A DNA stretch of 30,143 bases from a virus. Below, one piece after another: positions 3,740 through 30,143 of this stretch. Made by a program: the position numbers and the translations under genes. A model generated the notes under the pieces. The model was not told the origin of the DNA. It was given only the letters and a program-made list of their open reading frames with translations, and did no database searches. The stretch is taken from positions 1 to 30,143 of IMG/VR virus record IMGVR_UViG_3300025102_000010; one strand, given 5' to 3'. Numbering within the stretch: position 1 is the first letter of the stretch; each line of letters begins with the position of its first letter.

Positions 3740-4378
3740 ATGGCACTCGGAACCGCAGCGCTAATCATGGGCGGTCTGTCGACCGCGGCAAACATCGGCA
3801 CCGGCATCGGCACGGCAGTCGGCGCACGCAAGGAGAAGGAACGGCTCGAAGACGAGCTCGCCCGTATCCGTCGCAACCGTGGGCTTTCGGCGTCGCAGCG
3901 TGCAAGGCTCGAAGCTGCCGGGCAATCCGCGCAGATCGGAGTCGAACGCGCAACGCAAGCGTCGCAGGCCGAACAGCTCGCAGCGCAAGCGGCAACGGGC
4001 GGCAGCGTTTCGGGCCGTGACATCTTCTTGCGAGAGCAAGCAACGCAACAAGCGCGACAGGGTGCCGCAATCGCAAGCGGGCAACAAGTGCTCGAAGCCG
4101 ACCTCGCAGCACGTGCCGAGCAAGCTAACCAGATGGCACAGATTCGAGCCGGCATCGGTGCGGCCGAGCAACAACGCGTCGCCGGCATTACGCAAGCTCT
4201 GACGGGCGGTCTTGCGGGTGGCGCAGCGCTTGCGGGCGAAGCCGTGCGACAAGAAGACATCGCCAACGCGCAGCAGTTCGACTTGAAGAAGCTCGAAGCG
4301 GAGCTCGGCGCATTGACTCAGATTGAACTACAAAAGGCAGCTCTCGGCGGCGCACCTTCCCCACTTCCCTATCGGTGA
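3740..4378 (+). CDS. Internal virion (ejection) protein, T7 gp14-like in size and place
   Basis: ATG 3740 follows a GGGGG ribosome site after a short gap. The first 30 residues are Gly/Ala/Ile-rich (GLSTAANIGTGIGTAVGA) and could insert into a membrane or pack as an amphipathic helix. Residues 30-150 are an Ala/Gln/Glu/Arg-rich coiled-coil-like helix, followed by a second Gly/Ala-rich patch (ALTGGLAGGAALAG). Length of 212 residues, composition and position at the head of a set of three increasingly large Ala/Glu/Gln-rich proteins match the podoviral ejection-protein set (T7 gp14, gp15, gp16), which is stored in the capsid and forms the DNA conduit across the host envelope. This is assignment by context and composition; there is no sequence motif to prove it. 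Confidence 0.55.
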   Translation: MALGTAALIMGGLSTAANIGTGIGTAVGARKEKERLEDELARIRRNRGLSASQRARLEAAGQSAQIGVERATQASQAEQLAAQAATGGSVSGRDIFLREQATQQARQGAAIASGQQVLEADLAARAEQANQMAQIRAGIGAAEQQRVAGITQALTGGLAGGAALAGEAVRQEDIANAQQFDLKKLEAELGALTQIELQKAALGGAPSPLPYR

Positions 4379-4382
4379 CGTA

Positions 4383-6164
4383 ATGCCCGCAAAATACGAA
4401 GAATACCTCGACAGCTACAGCGCAGCGCTACGAACGCGGAAAGCGTACGACGCCATTATGCGCGACGTGCTTGACGAGCGGCAACAACTCGCAGCGCTAC
4501 AGCAGCTCATCGCGAGCGAACGCAACACGCTTGCACAGCTCGAAGGCACGCTCGTCGCGCAAAACACCGAGCAAGGGGTAGCGGGCGAGATTCTAAAGGC
4601 TCGACTCGGCACGCAACAAGCCGACGCGCAACGGGCGGCGTCAGCACGTGCGGCCGGTGCCGCTGCGACTGCAGTACCGCGCGCGCTTGTCGACCTTGCA
4701 AACGAGCTCGGCTTCGACGACGAGAGCCGCGAAGGCTTGACCGCAGGAAACGCAAACCGGATTGCGCAGCGTGCGACGCAGCTCCTTGCAGACCGTACGC
4801 GGCCGATGACAGAGCAAGCCGCACGCGCAGCGGTCGCCTATGTGCAAGCGTTGCCCGGTGTTCCGGCGCAAGCGTTGCGACAAGTCGAAAGCGCACGCGA
4901 TAGCGTGCCGGACCGACCGACCCGCGGACCTGGTCAACGTCGCCTGTCGCCCGAAGAGGCTGCGCAGAGAGCCGGAGAAGAGCAAGCGCTCGAAGCGGTG
5001 TACCATTCGTCGCCGCTCGGCTATGTCGGCGCGTTCGACGGCGAAGCGATTGCAGACCGACGGCGCACAACGACAGTCGAAGGCACGAGCTTCGAAACCG
5101 AAGATGACGCCTTCGTTGCGTATCTCGGTCTACTTGAAGACGGCGTCGCGACTGCCGAAGAGCTCGCAGCCTTCACCGACGCCACGGGCGAACAGGCCGA
5201 AGCCGACTTCAAGCTTGCCCGTCGGGTTTACGCCGAAGCGAAAGCACAGGGCGCATACCAGAATCGACAGCGCAAGTACTTCGACCCATCGTGGTTGAGT
5301 CAGTCGGCACGGGTTGCCGGGCTCGAAGCGGAGCTCGTAGCAACAACGCCGGAAACGCGACGCACGGCAACGCAGGAGACTGCGCGGCGACTGCTACAGC
5401 AACAAGGCATTGACCCCGACGACAAATACCTGCAGTTTCGCGGCACGCCGAAGTACGACTATTACAACGCGGCCGACCGCGTCTTCGGGTCAGTCGACGA
5501 AATCATTGCAGCGACGGGCGGTGAGAAAAGTATCGCCAAGCTCCTACAGCAATACGAGACGTCCGGCGTTGACTGGACTGTCGAGCAACTTGCCGCGCAG
5601 CTCGGTAAGACCATGGCCGGTGACGAGCTCGTAGACGCAATGGGCTTTGCGCTTGCACTCGACAGACAGACCCGCGAAGGCGTCAAGCCGGTCGACCGCA
5701 AAGCGCTGCAAGACGAAGAGCGTGCGCGGATCGAAGCGGCAGAAGAGGCAAGCAAGGCAGCGGCAGCAGCAGCCGAGCAACGCTTGCAAGCGGCACGGCA
5801 AGAGAAAAGCGAAGCCGAGCGGCGCGTGTTTGCCGATGTTACGAAGCGCTCGGCGCGAGCTGTGCAAGACGATTTACCTACAAGTTACGCGCGATTGCGT
5901 GCGCAAGGTTTGACGCAAGAAGAAGCCCGCGCACGGCTGCAAACAGAAGCCGAAGTCGAAGCCTACGCGCTTGGCGGGCCCTTGCCAACCAACCCAGAGC
6001 TTGCAGATGAGATTATGGCTACTGAGCCGGCCGAAGCTGGCGAGGAGATAGAGCTAACCGGCGACGTTATCTCTACAGAAGAAGCGGTCGACTTGAACGA
6101 AGTGCCGTTCGAAGACTTGACCGACGAGGAACTTCTTGAGATTGCAAACGGGAAGGGACCGTGA
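4383..6164 (+). CDS. Internal virion (ejection) protein, T7 gp15-like in place (593 aa)
   Basis: The start is ATG 4383, 8 bases after a GGTGA ribosome site; an in-frame TTG at 4323 would overlap the previous gene heavily and is rejected. The protein is almost entirely predicted helix: long runs rich in Ala, Glu, Gln, Arg and Leu, with an Ala/Glu/Arg stretch around residues 440-500 typical of coiled coil, and an acidic tail (EEVDLNEVPFEDLTDEELLE). No signal peptide, membrane helix or catalytic site is seen. It lies between the gp14-like and the 1447-residue genes and its stop overlaps the next GTG by four bases. Inferred to be the second ejection protein, forming the periplasmic tube; a generic internal head protein is the alternative. 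Confidence 0.55.
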   Translation: MPAKYEEYLDSYSAALRTRKAYDAIMRDVLDERQQLAALQQLIASERNTLAQLEGTLVAQNTEQGVAGEILKARLGTQQADAQRAASARAAGAAATAVPRALVDLANELGFDDESREGLTAGNANRIAQRATQLLADRTRPMTEQAARAAVAYVQALPGVPAQALRQVESARDSVPDRPTRGPGQRRLSPEEAAQRAGEEQALEAVYHSSPLGYVGAFDGEAIADRRRTTTVEGTSFETEDDAFVAYLGLLEDGVATAEELAAFTDATGEQAEADFKLARRVYAEAKAQGAYQNRQRKYFDPSWLSQSARVAGLEAELVATTPETRRTATQETARRLLQQQGIDPDDKYLQFRGTPKYDYYNAADRVFGSVDEIIAATGGEKSIAKLLQQYETSGVDWTVEQLAAQLGKTMAGDELVDAMGFALALDRQTREGVKPVDRKALQDEERARIEAAEEASKAAAAAAEQRLQAARQEKSEAERRVFADVTKRSARAVQDDLPTSYARLRAQGLTQEEARARLQTEAEVEAYALGGPLPTNPELADEIMATEPAEAGEEIELTGDVISTEEAVDLNEVPFEDLTDEELLEIANGKGP

Positions 6165-10548: not shown

Positions 10549-10986
10549 ATGCCGACACGCATTACGAACTTTATTCACGACAGCGTGCAAGCGCCCGACA
10601 GTGCACCGGCACTCGGCACGAACTTCGACACAGCTGACGTGCACGCGCACGACATGACAGGCCTACTACCTGCCTTCAAGGGCGCCGGGCTCTATCACGG
10701 GATGGTCGACGGCATCTTCGTGAAGCTGACGAAGACAAGCGGGTCGCCCACAAAGGTGACCATTCGGCTCTGTCTCGACGCAGCGGGTGACGAGGTCGTC
10801 GTGCCGGATACCGAAGCGACGCTCGTAACCGGGATTTCAACGGCGGCGACGATGAGCGCGACGTTTAGCGTCGGCCTCCCGATTGTGCAGCAGTTCACGG
10901 CGACGCAACGGTTCCTGTACCTCTTCGCGAAGCTCGACGCAGGCGCCGCCGATTTCGTGCAGTCCGTCATCACTTGGCGCGAGTAA
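10549..10986 (+). CDS. Small virion-like protein (145 aa), unknown
   Basis: ATG 10549 follows a strong GAGGTGAG ribosome site after a 44-base gap, the first break after the ejection cluster. The 145-residue protein is beta-strand-like (VTIRLCLDAAGDEVVV, RFLYLFAKLDA) with no membrane segment, repeat or recognised motif. It precedes a Gly-rich fibre-like protein with three bases between them, so the two are probably made together. A role as a small tail or capsid accessory protein is inferred from position only. Confidence 0.55.
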   Translation: MPTRITNFIHDSVQAPDSAPALGTNFDTADVHAHDMTGLLPAFKGAGLYHGMVDGIFVKLTKTSGSPTKVTIRLCLDAAGDEVVVPDTEATLVTGISTAATMSATFSVGLPIVQQFTATQRFLYLFAKLDAGAADFVQSVITWRE

Positions 10987-10989
10987 GCC

Positions 10990-11799
10990 ATGCCGATCGC
11001 ACCATGCTTCGACCCTACGACCGGCGCTTCGGGCGGTGCGTCTTCGGGCGGCGGCGGCGGACCGACGGGCGGGTCATACGTCACGCTTAAAGACCTGGAC
11101 CTTACTGACCTAAGCACGGTTAGCGCCATCACGAGCGGCACGAGCTCACTTGCTTTCGCGTCTTCGGGCGACAGTCTTAGCGTTACCGTGACGCGCTTCT
11201 CGGGTGCGAACGGCGACGTGACGCCCACGAACGGTAGCGGAATCCTGATGGACGGCGGCAGCGGTAGCGGCACCGTCACGATTTCGATGGATATTGACGC
11301 GCTGCTTTCGTCCTACACGCGGCAAGATGTGAGCTCGCACGTCTACGCGGTGCACCTTGTCGTCACGAGCGTCGTCTATCCGAACGCCGGTAATAGCGAC
11401 ATTTTCACCGGATTGAACAAGGGCAACAATACCACGCACAATGGCGGAGAAGCCCGCGGCTATTTCATCACCGACGACGGCGGAAACGGCGACGAAGAGA
11501 CCCGCGTGCGCAGCAACACGAGCAACAGCTCTGTACTGTCTACGACTGCGATCAAGACAAGCCGCGTGTTTACCTACATTCTTCTCGGCGGCGCTATCGT
11601 CGAAGTGATGGACACCAGCGGCACGACTCCGCCGACGCCTGTACCGGGCGGAGCGTCAACCATTACTGTCGGCGGCGACGCGGTCGGCTTGAATGACACG
11701 ACCCCGATTTACCAGGGCGACGGCTTGCGCTGCTACTTCGGGGCCGGCGACAGAACCACGGCAACGCTAACTCGTCTCCTTGTGCAGAGGTTCGAATGA
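10990..11799 (+). CDS. Gly/Ser-rich fibre-like virion protein (269 aa)
   Basis: ATG 10990 lies three bases after the previous stop. Residues 11-28 are a flexible linker of Gly, Ser, Ala and Pro (GASGGASSGGGGGPTGG). The rest is Thr/Ser/Gly/Asp-rich with alternating strands and looks like a beta-sandwich or jelly-roll head (about residues 30-269, LEU/VAL strands ending TLTRLLVQRFE). This build, a hinge followed by a beta domain, is common in receptor-binding and tail-fibre proteins and may place it at the outer surface. No catalytic residues or chaperone domain are seen. The stop overlaps the next ATG (ATGA). Function is inference. Confidence 0.55.
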   Translation: MPIAPCFDPTTGASGGASSGGGGGPTGGSYVTLKDLDLTDLSTVSAITSGTSSLAFASSGDSLSVTVTRFSGANGDVTPTNGSGILMDGGSGSGTVTISMDIDALLSSYTRQDVSSHVYAVHLVVTSVVYPNAGNSDIFTGLNKGNNTTHNGGEARGYFITDDGGNGDEETRVRSNTSNSSVLSTTAIKTSRVFTYILLGGAIVEVMDTSGTTPPTPVPGGASTITVGGDAVGLNDTTPIYQGDGLRCYFGAGDRTTATLTRLLVQRFE

Positions 11800-12080
11800 G
11801 TCAATCGATCAAGCTCGTCGAAGTGGCATACGACGACCAGGGCGGCACGCTCGCACACGTCGAAGTGTGGGGGCCGACTGCTACCGCTACTATGCAGACC
11901 GTCGCGGCAGCGGGCGACGAGGTCGCCTTCGTCACCATGGCGGAAAGCGTCGCGACTGTGGCAACCATACGGGCCGAAATCAAGGCCCGAATCGACGCCG
12001 GGTCGAGCTCGCCCGTACTAAAGTCACATCTCGACGCGCTCGGCATTACTGCAGCCGTGGCGCAATGGGCTGCGCTCTGA
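11796..12080 (+). CDS. Small protein (94 aa), unknown; tail-fibre/lysis junction
   Basis: The ATGA overlap with the upstream stop gives the start. The protein begins with a short beta-like segment (IKLVEVAYDDQGGTLAHVEVWGP) and ends in two helices rich in Ala. There is no membrane segment and no recognised domain. Its own stop overlaps the start of the holin-like gene (TGATG), so it is translationally coupled on both sides. It may be a fibre-associated partner of the preceding Gly-rich protein or part of the lysis group; the sequence does not decide. Confidence 0.6.
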   Translation: MSQSIKLVEVAYDDQGGTLAHVEVWGPTATATMQTVAAAGDEVAFVTMAESVATVATIRAEIKARIDAGSSSPVLKSHLDALGITAAVAQWAAL

Positions 12081-12370
12081 TGGACGAGACGACGCTCTTG
12101 ACTTTGGCGACCGGCCCGACGAGCTCGCTATTGCTCCTCCTTACGATCGGGCTGGCGCTTTGGCGATTCCTGCAGAATGTGGTCATCCCGGCGTGCACAA
12201 GATGGGTTGACAGCCATTTAGCGCAGGTTGATAGGCTTATAGACGAGCACGGACAAGACCGCGAAGCGTGGCTCTCTTCGATGAGAGATTGCCGCGAACA
12301 GTCCGACCGAATCGAACGCAAGGTCGGCGGGCTGTACGGCCGTATCGAAGCGCTTGCGAAGGATGCGTAG
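12080..12370 (+). CDS. Holin-like single-span membrane protein (96 aa)
   Basis: ATG 12080 overlaps the upstream stop TGA; an in-frame ATG at 12065 is possible but would overlap more. Residues about 15-32 are a strong transmembrane helix (SLLLLLTIGLALWRFL), after a short N-terminus with two acidic residues. The remaining 60 residues are charged and helical (QVDRLIDEHGQDREAW, then SDRIERKVGGLYGRIEAL), likely a cytoplasmic coiled coil. Small size, single span, charged tail and place two genes before an M15 peptidase are typical of phage holins that release the endolysin. Some phage membrane proteins of this plan are not holins; no lysis test is implied. Confidence 0.6.
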   Translation: MDETTLLTLATGPTSSLLLLLTIGLALWRFLQNVVIPACTRWVDSHLAQVDRLIDEHGQDREAWLSSMRDCREQSDRIERKVGGLYGRIEALAKDA

Positions 12371-12372
12371 AC

Positions 12373-12630
12373 GTGGGCGTCCGACGCATAAGGAAAGGCG
12401 AGCCCGGGCACGGGCGGCAAAAGTTCGTCGCGACAGGCGAGCACGACGGAAAGCCCTACACCGTGCGCTTCGGGGACGCGAACATGTCAATCAAGCGCGA
12501 CGACCCGAAGCGGCGAAAGAACTTTCGCAAGCGCCACGGTTGCAGCAATCCAGGGCCACCGAACAAGGCGAAGTACTGGAGCTGCAAGCTCTGGTCGGAC
12601 AAACCGGTATCGGACATCGTGAAGGGGTAG
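12373..12630 (+). CDS. Small basic protein with conserved phage YWSCKLW ending motif (85 aa)
   Basis: I chose GTG 12373, 10 bases after GAAGGA and right behind the holin stop; upstream in-frame codons lie within the holin gene. The protein is strongly basic. It contains a characteristic phrase: a FGDANMSIKRDDPKRRKNFR segment, then RHGCSNPG and KAKYWSCKLW, with two cysteines about 20 residues apart. From memory, short proteins with RH.C....K..YWSC..W occur in many tailed phages, often near lysis or head genes, without a firm function. The two Cys and the basic patch could bind metal or nucleic acid, which is inference. It lies two bases before the endolysin gene. Confidence 0.65.
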   Translation: MGVRRIRKGEPGHGRQKFVATGEHDGKPYTVRFGDANMSIKRDDPKRRKNFRKRHGCSNPGPPNKAKYWSCKLWSDKPVSDIVKG

Positions 12631-12632
12631 GC

Positions 12633-13058
12633 ATGGCAAGCGGATACCAGTGGGGCTCTCGAAGCTTGCAGCGTCTCAACAGCTGCGACCCGCGTATCGT
12701 CGAGCTGATGACGACAGCGCTACACGACGACCGTTGCCCGTTTGACTTGACGGTCATTGAAGGACACCGAAGCAACGAGCGCCAAGCCGAGCTGTACGCG
12801 AAGGGGCGCACGACGCCTGGTCCGAAGGTGACGAACGCCAAGCCCGGCCAGAGCCGGCACAATAGCTTCCCGTCCGAAGCCGTCGACGTCGGGCCGTGTG
12901 ACGCTCGCGGGAACGTGTTGTGGGATGACAAAGGCAAGTTCGACGCCCTTGCCGCACACGTCGAGCGCATTGCCGACGAGCTCGCGATACCGATTGTGTG
13001 GGGCGGCACCTTCTCGTTCTACGACGGTGCGCACTACGAGCTGCCGCGGGGGTCGTAA
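12633..13058 (+). CDS. Endolysin, M15-family peptidase (L-Ala-D-Glu / D-Ala-D-Ala type)
   Basis: ATG 12633 follows AAGGGG. The 141-residue protein has the zinc-peptidase plan of the M15 (VanY/Ply) family: a substrate loop IEGHRSNERQAELYAKG at about 42-58, then SRHNSFPSEAVDVGP with the presumed zinc ligands His76 and Asp85, and DGAHYELP with His134 near the C-terminus. Length equals a single catalytic domain with no wall-binding repeat and no signal peptide, so it should act in the periplasm after release through the holin pore, cutting peptidoglycan stem peptides. It is two genes downstream of the holin-like gene. The exact bond cut cannot be read from sequence. The family assignment is secure. 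Confidence 0.88.
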   Translation: MASGYQWGSRSLQRLNSCDPRIVELMTTALHDDRCPFDLTVIEGHRSNERQAELYAKGRTTPGPKVTNAKPGQSRHNSFPSEAVDVGPCDARGNVLWDDKGKFDALAAHVERIADELAIPIVWGGTFSFYDGAHYELPRGS

Positions 13059-13405
13059 TGGCTGACGACGCATGTACCCGCAAAATCAAAAAGCAGTATA
13101 AGAAGTGGCCGAGCGCACGCGCGTCGCAGGCCGTTGCGAAGTGCAGAAAGTCGAAGGGACAACAACGCAAAGGCAAGGCAGGTACTTCGCTTCGTCGGTG
13201 GGCGCGCGAGAAGTGGGTCGACAAGGCTACCGGCAAGCCGTGCGGACACTCTGGCGACAACAAGAAACAATACTGCAGACCCTCGAAGGTCGTGTCGAAG
13301 GACAAGACGCCGTCGACCAGGCCTTCGAAGAAACAAGTACAAGACGCGTTGTTCCGCAAGCGTGCCGGCAAGCGTGCGAAGTCCACACCGAAGCCCAAGA
13401 GGTGA
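13058..13405 (+). CDS. Small Lys/Arg-rich cysteine protein, DUF5872-like (115 aa)
   Basis: ATG 13058 overlaps the endolysin stop (TAATG). The protein is very basic. A core phrase has the order WPSARASQAVAKCRK, then LRRWAREKWVDKATGKPCG, then QYCRPSKVVSKDKTP. I recall this W.SA.AS..A..C and W.D..TGKPCG...CRPSK pattern from small proteins of phages and large DNA viruses (DUF5872); I could not check it here. The cysteines near residues 6, 29, 68 and 78 could bind zinc. The basic Lys/Arg tail (KRAGKRAKSTPKPKR) would favour DNA contact, for instance as a DNA-associated virion protein. Function is unknown. Confidence 0.65.
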   Translation: MADDACTRKIKKQYKKWPSARASQAVAKCRKSKGQQRKGKAGTSLRRWAREKWVDKATGKPCGHSGDNKKQYCRPSKVVSKDKTPSTRPSKKQVQDALFRKRAGKRAKSTPKPKR

Positions 13406-14999: not shown

Positions 15000-15505
15000 G
15001 GTTCGTTGCCCTTTGTTTGAAAGTTCAGCCAAGCAAGTACGAGGCCGAGCGCTTGCCAGGAGTGAGAGGAAAGGCCGTACAGCGGCCCCGGTGACGCCTT
15101 GCGCCCGACTGCAGGAGGGCCGCCGGGTGTCTCATGGTCGGCAATGCACGCAGCCCGCACGCGGGCATCTGACGAGCCCTTGCCGGACAATACGCCGAGA
15201 TGTCGCAGCACTTCGCGACGCGTCATCGTGCACACGACGTAGCCGTGAAGGCTTAGGCCTTCGGACATTGCGCCGGCTTCCCATGCAGTATCGAGCATGT
15301 GGCCGACAACGCCCGAACCGATTGCGCCCATTGCCGCCGGCCGTTCCATTACGACGCGCAACCGTTCCCAACTGTGTTCGAGCGCGACGGCTTCGACCTG
15401 GTCTTGTGTCGCGGCCTTGTCCGACCAGACAACCCGACGCTCGACGCTGTCGTACACGACTGCGCCATGCGTCACCGGGCCGGGGTCAATGCCAAGCACA
15501 ATCAC
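14996..15505 (-). CDS. RuvC/RNase H-fold Holliday junction resolvase-like protein
   Basis: GTG 15505 overlaps the upstream stop (GTGA), with GGTGG as ribosome site. The 169-residue protein begins with a beta strand carrying the first RNase H-fold acid (VLGIDPGPVTHG, Asp7), then VMERPAAMG with Glu54. The C-terminal SSHSWQALGLVLAW has His148, where classic RuvC has H..DA. Gln151 stands at the usual Asp position, a variation I recall from small phage RuvC-like proteins. The segment LGVLSGKGSSDARVRAA corresponds to the family's G-K-x loop. It probably cuts branched recombination or replication intermediates before packaging. The catalytic set is incomplete by the classic rule, so activity is not certain. 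Confidence 0.75.
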   Translation of the reverse strand: MIVLGIDPGPVTHGAVVYDSVERRVVWSDKAATQDQVEAVALEHSWERLRVVMERPAAMGAIGSGVVGHMLDTAWEAGAMSEGLSLHGYVVCTMTRREVLRHLGVLSGKGSSDARVRAACIADHETPGGPPAVGRKASPGPLYGLSSHSWQALGLVLAWLNFQTKGNEP

Positions 15506-15990
15506 AGCGCCACCTTCGAGAGCTGCAGCTCGTTCGCGATGTTCTGCAGCTCGTGCTCTACCTGTCGCATCTTCTGGTTGTACTCGCTCGCGGCCGTGCT
15601 GATTTCGTCGAGCGCTCGGTTGATGCTCCTCGCGACGCCGTTTGCAAAGTTCGCGGTCAAGTGTTTCTGCGCTCCGATACGCCGCTTCACGTCGAGCGCG
15701 TGCTTTGCGAGCTCGCCTGGTTCCATGGGTGGCGGTGGCGGTGGCGGCGGGTCGTCGAAGATGCTTGGACCGTCGGGCGCCCGTTCGATTGCATACCAGC
15801 GTCGGCCGCGGCATTCTGCAACGCCCGAACGCCGCACGTAGTCACGGATTCCCCAGTAAAACGCGGTACCTGACGCGGTGTCGACGTGTGCGGGCGCAAA
15901 AGCATCGATCAAGTCGCGCAGCTTCGAGCCGGGATTGTCGGAAAGAAACCGGTAGAGCTCGTCGGGCGATGGCAAGCCGGGCGCGGTCAT
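15502..15990 (-). CDS. Unknown protein: winged-helix-like N-part, polyproline linker, coiled coil (162 aa)
   Basis: ATG 15990 overlaps the upstream stop (ATGA). Three parts are visible. Residues 1-70 have the length and pattern of a small helix-turn-helix/winged-helix unit (LPSPDELYRFLSDNPGSKL, then FYWGIRDYVRRSGVAE and a strand RRWYAIE). Residues 81-88 are eight consecutive prolines encoded by a GGTGGC-type repeat. Residues 90-162 form a charged helix likely to coil (SINRALDEISTAASEYNQKM). It lies between the annealing protein and the resolvase. It could bridge DNA and another recombination protein, for example as a loader or regulator; this is inference. I do not recognise the family. Confidence 0.55.
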   Translation of the reverse strand: MTAPGLPSPDELYRFLSDNPGSKLRDLIDAFAPAHVDTASGTAFYWGIRDYVRRSGVAECRGRRWYAIERAPDGPSIFDDPPPPPPPPMEPGELAKHALDVKRRIGAQKHLTANFANGVARSINRALDEISTAASEYNQKMRQVEHELQNIANELQLSKVAL

Positions 15991-18979: not shown

Positions 18980-19186
18980 TCAAGTTCGCGTCAACGGTAC
19001 GCCGTCCTCGAGCGTCGCGTTGATTGCTTCGATGAGTCCGTCGGCTTGTTGACGCCGTCGCAGGTCGTCTTGAACGAGCGGGTGAACGACCTTGTGCAAG
19101 TACTCGGTCGTCGTCAGCTTTGCGCGAGCGGCAGCGAGTCGGACGTCGCGGCCGAACTCTTCAGAGAAGATGGGTCGGAGCTGCAT
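18980..19186 (-). CDS. Small protein (68 aa), possibly ribbon-helix-helix DNA-binding
   Basis: ATG 19186 follows GAAGGA at a normal distance, and that ribosome site overlaps the end of the upstream gene. The 68-residue sequence has the length and pattern of a ribbon-helix-helix regulator (FGRDVRLAAARAKLTTTEYLHKVVHPLV), a short strand followed by two helices, with an alpha-helical tail. Such proteins bind operators as dimers, and candidate operator-like repeats lie in the nearby intergenic region. This is a weak match seen by eye. A structural or replication accessory protein is equally possible. Confidence 0.5.
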   Translation of the reverse strand: MQLRPIFSEEFGRDVRLAAARAKLTTTEYLHKVVHPLVQDDLRRRQQADGLIEAINATLEDGVPLTRT

Positions 19187-19818: not shown

Positions 19819-19949
19819 TGCTTGCTCCTTTGTACATTCGTACTGTAATCCATTGTGGCGGGATGGTGTGGTGTCAAGTGTGTCATAGTTCGGTCACAGT
19901 TGTGTCATTGGTGAGAACCCCCATCCCCGCGGCATTTACGGTACCTGTA

Positions 19950-20164
19950 GTCGAGAACGCGCTATCCATCACACGGTCACTGTGAAAGCAACGTGATACT
20001 GGTTACTCTCAACGAGACAGTGCAAGCCCCTCTGACAGTTTCAAATACTCAGTGGGTAAATTCTAACTTCATTCAACACGGTTTTAGGTTGCACTGCCTC
20101 GTTGAAAAGGTGCACCATTGCGGTATAATGACAGTGCACGTGTGATGGATAGCGCGTTCTCGAC
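19950..20164. repeat. Nested inverted repeats on one axis (base 20057)
   Basis: The outer arms 19950-19983 and 20131-20164 are reverse complements at 32 of 34 positions, including 26 in a row (19950-19975 with 20139-20164). The inner arms 20007-20025 and 20089-20107 match at 17 of 19. Both pairs are centred on 20057, so the whole 215-bp segment is a decayed palindrome with an AT-rich unpaired centre. This is direct from the sequence. It indicates an ancient inverted duplication kept under selection at the arms. Confidence 0.95.
20102..20129 (+). promoter_or_regulatory. Sigma70-like promoter for the rightward unit
   Basis: TTGAAA (20102-20107), a 16-base spacer and a perfect TATAAT (20124-20129) point rightward to a start near 20136, about 48 bases before ATG 20184. 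The -35 element lies in the inner inverted-repeat arm. The mirror position on the left has TTGAGA but no TATAAT-like partner, so the promoter is one-sided at present. Confidence 0.75.
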
Positions 20165-20183
20165 GATTCAACCGGGATTGACC

Positions 20184-20420
20184 ATGGCCGAGCTCGAAAC
20201 AATGACCCCTGACACGATCGAACTTGCGCTTGCGAAGCTCGCACCCGACGCGCTCGGGCTACTTGAAGGCGTGCTGCGCGGGACGAAGCGGCCGAACAAG
20301 GCGCAGCTCGACGCAGCTTGGCGCGTGCTCGACGTCGCACGGGCACGCCAGGTCGTGTCGTTGGAAGCGCCCGAGATAGAAGAGCTGCGCAACGTGCTAC
20401 AACTCGTAGCGGATAGCTAA
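20184..20420 (+). CDS. Small terminase-like protein (78 aa)
   Basis: I start at ATG 20184, six bases after GGGA. ATG 20145 is in frame and would add MDSAFSTIQPGLT, but it lies only about nine bases after the predicted transcript start and inside the repeat arm; the TTG at 20118 lies upstream of that start. The protein is helical (DTIELALAKLAPDALGLLEG, then NKAQLDAAWRVLDVARARQ), like the short DNA-recognition subunits that partner large terminases. It is first in the packaging-head unit, with the large terminase two genes on. Too short and divergent for certainty; a small regulator is the alternative. Confidence 0.5.
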   Translation: MAELETMTPDTIELALAKLAPDALGLLEGVLRGTKRPNKAQLDAAWRVLDVARARQVVSLEAPEIEELRNVLQLVADS

Positions 20421-29304: not shown

Positions 29305-30143
29305 ATGCGCGGAACGACACTACAGACCCCGACTGCAGGCGGCATCGAGACACGCGTGCCGGGCAACCCGCAGAATGCGCAAGTGCTCGACAACTGGACA
29401 ATCGATCCGTCGACGGGCGGGTGGTCCTCTCGGGTTGGATACGAGCGCTTCCGACCGCAGACGAGCGCGGGCTTCCAGCCGTTCGACTCGACCGGGCCGA
29501 TCACATCGCTGCACGTTGCGCAACACTTGGCGCAAGGCGCACGGCAGCTCGTCATGTTCGAAGCCGACGGCGCGCTACAGATGGTGTACGACATCGCAGG
29601 CACACCCGTACGCCGCACGCTGCAGTCGGGCCGACATACGCCGACCGCTACCGAGGCCGGCAGCTGGTATACGGACGTAGGCGACCGAACCATCGTCACA
29701 AACGGCGTCGACCGTCCCGTGATTGTGCGCCCGTGGCCGCTCGGAAACGCGACCGAGGCAAGCAACACTGCGAGCTCGTGCGTGCGTGCGCTCGGCTTCG
29801 CGGGTGCACCGTCGCCGGTTGAGGCAATGCGGAATGAACCGATGGACCCCGGCACGCAATCGCAGCGCACGGCTTCGGGCGGTCGCACGTCGTTGTGGTG
29901 CTCTTTCTCGGCGCAAGTGCCGGGCGAGACCGCGGGCGTATGGGGTCTCGGCTTCCCGCGCGGCGTAGCCAACAACGACGAGCAAAGCGTCTTCGACTGG
30001 TCGATTTCGTACTTGACCGACACGGGCAGCGAGTCGCCTTTGTCCGCACCGGCAACCCTTTCGTGGACAATGCCCGAAACGGCCCGCGGCTTTCGAGCTG
30101 CGATTGCGCTGCGCGTTCCGACTGGACCCGACGGCACGGTCGG
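29305..30143 (+). CDS. Tail nozzle / tail tubular protein B-like, 5' part (continues at base 1)
   Basis: ATG 29305 follows AGGGGAAAC. The frame has no stop before the window end and continues, after removing the 127-base repeat, at base 1 to the stop at 1454; total 721 residues. The N-terminal part begins LQTPTAGGIETRVPGNPQNA and LDNWTIDPSTGGWSSRVGYE. It is followed by beta strands, as in tail nozzle proteins, which often begin with a short G-I-x-x-R-x-P segment. It follows the adaptor gene. No catalytic or membrane feature is seen. Confidence 0.65.
   Translation, partial: MRGTTLQTPTAGGIETRVPGNPQNAQVLDNWTIDPSTGGWSSRVGYERFRPQTSAGFQPFDSTGPITSLHVAQHLAQGARQLVMFEADGALQMVYDIAGTPVRRTLQSGRHTPTATEAGSWYTDVGDRTIVTNGVDRPVIVRPWPLGNATEASNTASSCVRALGFAGAPSPVEAMRNEPMDPGTQSQRTASGGRTSLWCSFSAQVPGETAGVWGLGFPRGVANNDEQSVFDWSISYLTDTGSESPLSAPATLSWTMPETARGFRAAIALRVPTGPDGTV
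30017..30143. repeat. Terminal redundancy, right copy (same as 1-127)
   Basis: These bases are identical to 1-127. They repeat the sequence once at the end of the contig and should be removed when the circular map is drawn. Both copies code the same segment of the nozzle gene. Confidence 0.95.

Follow-up and report, generated by a model that had tools for sequence, protein, structure and literature searches.

The window analysed here is the complete record IMGVR_UViG_3300025102_000010, a stretch of 30,143 nt from an uncultured bacterial virus, a member of a probably virulent phage group. The record carries an exact end repeat of 127 bp (positions 1-127 equal 30017-30143), and it is therefore probably a circular assembly with a true length of 30016 bp, in which the end repeat is a k-mer overlap. 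Its genes are arranged in two blocks that diverge from a mirror-symmetric region around position 20057. The leftward block encodes a VapE-type helicase/primase, an Erf-like annealing protein, a RuvC-like protein, an exonuclease and an SSB, and the rightward block encodes a methyltransferase-like protein, a terminase, a portal and a major head protein, so that the replication genes lie on one side and the packaging and structural genes on the other. A rightward-block protein (4323-6164, plus strand) gave a weak KfrA_N match (E 0.0005, below Pfam's cut-off) and lies in a stretch of strong AT skew. Perfect palindromes of 14 bp are found at 1078, 14059 and 18746 (GTTCCACGTGGAAC, CCACCACGTGGTGG and GTCGAACGTTCGAC). 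The Rfam and tRNA searches returned no useful match.

The rightward unit begins with a gene at 20184-20420 (plus strand), whose likely true start was inferred from relatives and whose product can be called terminase-small-subunit-like by its position only. The longer form, 20145-20420, has no family match. The position directly upstream of the packaging genes would suit a cos or pac site at which the terminase starts packaging. The nearest terminases with an annotation are remote (at most 27% identity) and mostly T4-like, a group known to package by the headful mechanism, and the search of the genome contig collection returned no terminase relatives. As the small terminase is only putative and the conserved elements described below are centred on a promoter, we consider a packaging site highly improbable.

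Symmetry of the intergenic region and its conservation

The outer arms of the mirror region lie at 19950-19983 (plus strand; conserved in the 12 genomes) and 20131-20164 (minus strand), the right one covering the predicted transcript start and untranslated leader of the rightward unit. The inner arms lie at 20007-20025 (plus strand) and 20089-20107 (minus strand), the latter including the -35 hexamer TTGAAA. An earlier note on this DNA had described 32 matches in 34 for the outer arms, 26 of them in a row, and 17 in 19 for the inner arms, with a common axis at 20057 and a low-GC stretch of about 147 bp between the outer arms. The recount returned the same numbers, and the GC content of the 147 bp is 44%, compared with 62% for the window. 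When every possible axis in the window was scanned, the axis at 20057 ranked first with 62 of about 110 pairs (mean 28.9, z 6.7), and the next-best axis had 49 pairs. Folding the mirror region as single-stranded DNA gave a z of -9.85, and none of 200 shuffles was as good.

The comparison covered 12 genomes, namely the window and 11 other metagenome contigs from IMG/VR; the contig L016 covers only the right end of the mirror region. The search for the same palindrome in related phages, which the earlier note had proposed, found that each of the 11 other contigs reaches its highest symmetry at this axis, with 58-66 pairs, and the mirror plan has the same place, the same parts and the same spacing in all 12 genomes. 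An assembly error or chimera was rejected, because 11 other contigs carry the same plan. Transposon ends were also rejected, by reasoning, as one site and one spacing occur in all genomes. The possibility, likewise raised earlier, that phages with the same gene order lack the symmetry does not hold for the close relatives, since the site-spanning contigs with TerL at least 86% identical keep it, but it does hold for a sister clade with TerL about 74-76% identical, in two contigs of which (L022 and L023) the same divergent layout is resolved. The sequences therefore indicate that the mirror symmetry is a trait of one clade. In the sister clade (L022 2080-2314, L023 and L019) the intergenic region is organised differently and contains a 16-bp palindrome, TAGCTAGTACTAGCTA; the leader motif GTGAGAACCCC...CATTCTCG is all that the two groups have in common there.

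The conservation within the region is uneven, and this supported the earlier idea of an inverted duplication now conserved only in parts. Outside the core, the alignment is free of indels over the whole interval that starts with the 11-bp repeats at 19881 and closes with the right arm. Among divergent genomes the left gap is 44% identical and the core (20026-20088) 42% identical, both being nearly indel-free, and the length of the core varies by a single base over the 12 genomes. Such free sequence with nearly fixed length is expected for protein sites that are phased on the DNA. The conserved parts were thought to be the -35 region, the expected transcript start and a start-codon region; the first two agreed with our alignment, but the third did not. 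Several relatives (L006, L007 and L008) lack the ATG at 20145 or have it out of frame, and the ATG at 20184 fits the relatives better. A coding start within the right arm was thus rejected, and the conserved right arm around 20145 is most likely an untranslated leader.

Promoter, half-sites and leader repeats

The right half contains a rightward sigma-70 promoter motif, TTGAAA-16-TATAAT, at 20102-20129 (plus strand). The TATAAT is found in all 12 genomes, whereas the TTGAAA occurs in only four and the -35 is poor in the other 8 of 12. In the window, L004, L005 and L006 the right promoter is near consensus. An invariant -10 with a variable -35 suggests that the right promoter is regulated. The left half lacks a -10, and a leftward sigma-70 promoter consistent across the 12 genomes was not found.

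The alignment also revealed four half-sites. The first, GTCACTGT in the window and GCACTG in most relatives, lies at 19976-19983 (plus strand). The second, at 20017-20024, reads TGCACTGT on the minus strand, and a conserved AGCCCC follows it on the plus strand. The third, TGCACTGC, borders the right promoter on its upstream side (20090-20097, plus strand), and the fourth, TGCACTGT on the minus strand, lies at the predicted transcript start (20131-20138). Their conserved forms, at 19976, 20017, 20090 and 20131, are TGCACTGT, ACAGTGCA, TGCACTGY and ACAGTGCA. The half-sites alternate in orientation with a spacing of 41-73-41 bp in the window, which is near whole helical turns, and two of them bracket the -10, one near -43 and the other at the transcript start. 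The window holds four occurrences of TGCACTGT versus 0.72 expected, two in the mirror region and two in coding DNA.

The most conserved block of the leftward leader is a set of three direct repeats that recur every 11 bp, TGTCATAGTTC GGTCACAGTTG TGTCATTGGTG, at 19881-19913 on the plus strand. Read on that strand, these GTCAY repeats may resemble a PhoB (Pho) box of the host. No -10 was found at the usual distance after this stretch.

The main rival to the regulatory reading developed below is a replication origin, in which inverted initiator sites would flank an AT-richer unwinding core with divergent promoters around it. This is consistent with the composition of the core (41% GC versus 62% for the window, and A-rich on one strand in several relatives), with a core length that stays fixed while its sequence drifts, with the VapE-type helicase encoded next door, with the adjoining 11-bp repeats and with the precedent of Ceduovirus, whose origin lies between divergent early and late blocks (PMC7150918). 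However, the AT content of the core is only 53-62%, and the conserved elements are centred on the promoter. The GC-skew check suggested in the earlier note went against an origin, as the cumulative maximum falls near the site (21165) and the minimum at 2500, the reverse of the usual origin, with weak values. The expectation that an origin or an early/late switch lies here agrees with the separation of the replication and packaging/structural blocks, but an origin gained no positive evidence, and we regard it as rather unlikely.

A lineage-variable patch in the outer arms

Many columns of the arms do not vary at all, whether between genomes or between the two arms. A 5-bp patch, present as a left copy at 19971-19975 (plus strand) and a right copy at 20139-20143 (minus strand), varies between lineages, and each copy tends to match the other copy of the same genome. 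The match within genomes had a mean of 4.14 of 5, compared with 1.60 between genomes (permutation p = 0.0008; seven representatives, relatedness not corrected for). Under the same permutation the within-genome excess was not significant in the outer, inner and gap segments (p 0.15, 0.13 and 0.77). In pair counts, 44 cells had changed on both sides versus 18.7 in shuffles, and 24 of the 44 lie in the patch. The patch shows two-sided changes only, with no one-sided change and no one-sided G-U. Its copies mismatch in L006, L007, L012, L013 and L017.

Pairing across the arms, as an RNA hairpin or a cruciform, is disfavoured because it predicts G-U intermediates and compensatory changes in the rest of the arms; the other variable columns are uncompensated, and the patch has no one-sided G-U changes. 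A local leader hairpin was rejected, as it showed no covariation. The explanations that remain are coevolution with a protein, homology for strand exchange and short conversion events. A patch that drifts between lineages and matches within a genome is a natural experiment on the coevolution of paired operators, or of recombination sites.

Recombination between the inverted repeats, or template switching, might be what keeps the arms alike, and not function. The left arm of L018 differs from its close relatives L007 and L012 at several positions, mostly toward its own right arm, and L004 carries a matching change in both arms compared with the window and L005; the phage also encodes Erf-like, exonuclease and RuvC-like proteins. 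On the other hand, the patch is the only segment with a significant within-genome excess, and the conserved parts also match across genomes, so we think this explanation unlikely.

The patch could also be the strand-exchange region of a site-specific recombination pair, which has to be the same in both partner sites; its conserved flanks would bind a recombinase, and recombination would flip the promoter. The within-genome match described above is the signature expected of such an overlap region. However, all 12 contigs carry the TATAAT on the right, the sequences flanking the patch do not form an inverted repeat with one another, the patch mismatches in five contigs, and no integrase or invertase was found among the proteins searched, although a host enzyme might serve. 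We hold such a pair to be highly unlikely. Frequent promoter inversion is unlikely, because a single orientation is found in the 12 contigs and no recombinase among the proteins searched. It is also very unlikely that the mirror elements act as strand-exchange partner sites, for promoter inversion or for copy-number amplification as in the yeast 2-micron plasmid, with the patch serving, within the control region of a virulent phage, as a homology code private to each lineage.

Candidate DNA-binding proteins

A 68-aa early protein encoded at 18980-19186 (minus strand) is a candidate binder of the half-sites. Its AlphaFold model (mean pLDDT 79.7) has an extended N-terminus and two helices. The Foldseek matches in the PDB were mostly ribbon-helix-helix (RHH) proteins, all with E of at least 1.3 and none significant alone, and Pfam gave no match to an RHH family, whose fold is beta-alpha-alpha as in Arc and ParG. 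Contigs that extend far enough to include its position carry the gene, and all nine loci found belong to the same phage group. The presumed DNA-contacting segment LRP is invariant, and therefore this protein does not explain the lineage-specific patch.

A second early protein (15502-15990, minus strand) is predicted to form a winged-helix-like domain together with a long helix or coiled coil. It was rejected as the binder because L009 keeps the mirror region and has no detectable homologue. The stretch of L009 where the homologue is missing (10956-13100) contains two RuvC-like reading frames.

A possible early/late control region

The best explanation, which we consider evenly balanced between support and doubt, is that the mirror region is a divergent early/late control region in which a phage protein pairs two elements and controls the right promoter. 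The control unit would consist of two inverted copies of a bipartite element of about 80 bp at fixed spacing. The right copy would be built around the sigma-70-type promoter of the packaging/structural unit, with its good -10 and variable -35, and the left copy, having the same presumed protein-binding elements without a promoter, would be the auxiliary operator of the pair. We infer that a DNA-binding protein encoded in the leftward (replication) unit, with the RHH-like 68-aa protein as the most likely one, may bind the four half-sites, which lie near one helical face. The bound protein would bend or loop the core, and this could set the activity of the right promoter and feed back on the leftward unit. 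The direction and timing of this regulation, like the start sites, are predictions.

The position of the region, which separates the VapE-type helicase, Erf-like and exonuclease genes from the terminase, portal and capsid genes, was counted in favour of such a switch, as were the symmetry and spacing kept in the 12 genomes, the half-sites around the -10, the excess of TGCACTGT, the RHH-like gene in the contigs that reach it and the phi29 precedent. Counted against it were the near-consensus right promoter of the window and L004-L006, which fits a late promoter poorly, the lack of a consistent leftward promoter and the weak RHH matches. The phage collection searched contained no DNA relative of the mirror region, and the proposed switch would give this uncultured phage group a defined and testable architecture.

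Comparison with known systems

The earlier note knew of no phage control region with such a plan, but two precedents were found, in the phi29 A2c-A2b-A3 region (PMC3100819) and in the c2 phage origin (PMC7150918). In lactococcal Ceduovirus (c2/bIL67/923), the origin is located in a non-coding region between the divergent early and late blocks (PMC7150918). Both systems have a non-coding stretch with repeats and promoters between such blocks. They differ in that the ori-type sequences are unrelated and the origin function was shown there, whereas the window has a mirror plan and a hypothetical origin at most.

The T4 middle promoters, which depend on MotA, have a conserved -10, a weak or variable -35 and an activator box upstream. 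The right promoter is similar in its conserved -10, its weak or variable -35 and the presumed protein-binding site upstream of it. The sequence and position of the box differ, however, and the MotA sites are single and unpaired.

In phi29, protein p4 recognises four imperfect inverted repeats spread across the early and late promoters, and it activates the late promoter A3, which has a poor -35 (PMC3100819). The p4 sites follow the pattern 5'-CTTTTT-15 bp-AAAATG-3' (PMC3100819), from which the conserved half-sites here, TGCACTGT/ACAGTGCA, differ. The host and the phage also differ, no relative of p4 or p6 came to light, and in the window two whole elements of about 80 bp mirror each other, one of them without a promoter. 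Both regions have several inverted sites, which extend over about 120-200 bp between the early and the late promoter (predicted ones in the window), and a small early phage protein as the regulator, which in the window is a candidate only. The poor -35 of A3 has a counterpart in 8 of the 12 genomes, the other four having TTGAAA. By this analogy, phi29 may be the closest working model for the function of the mirror region.
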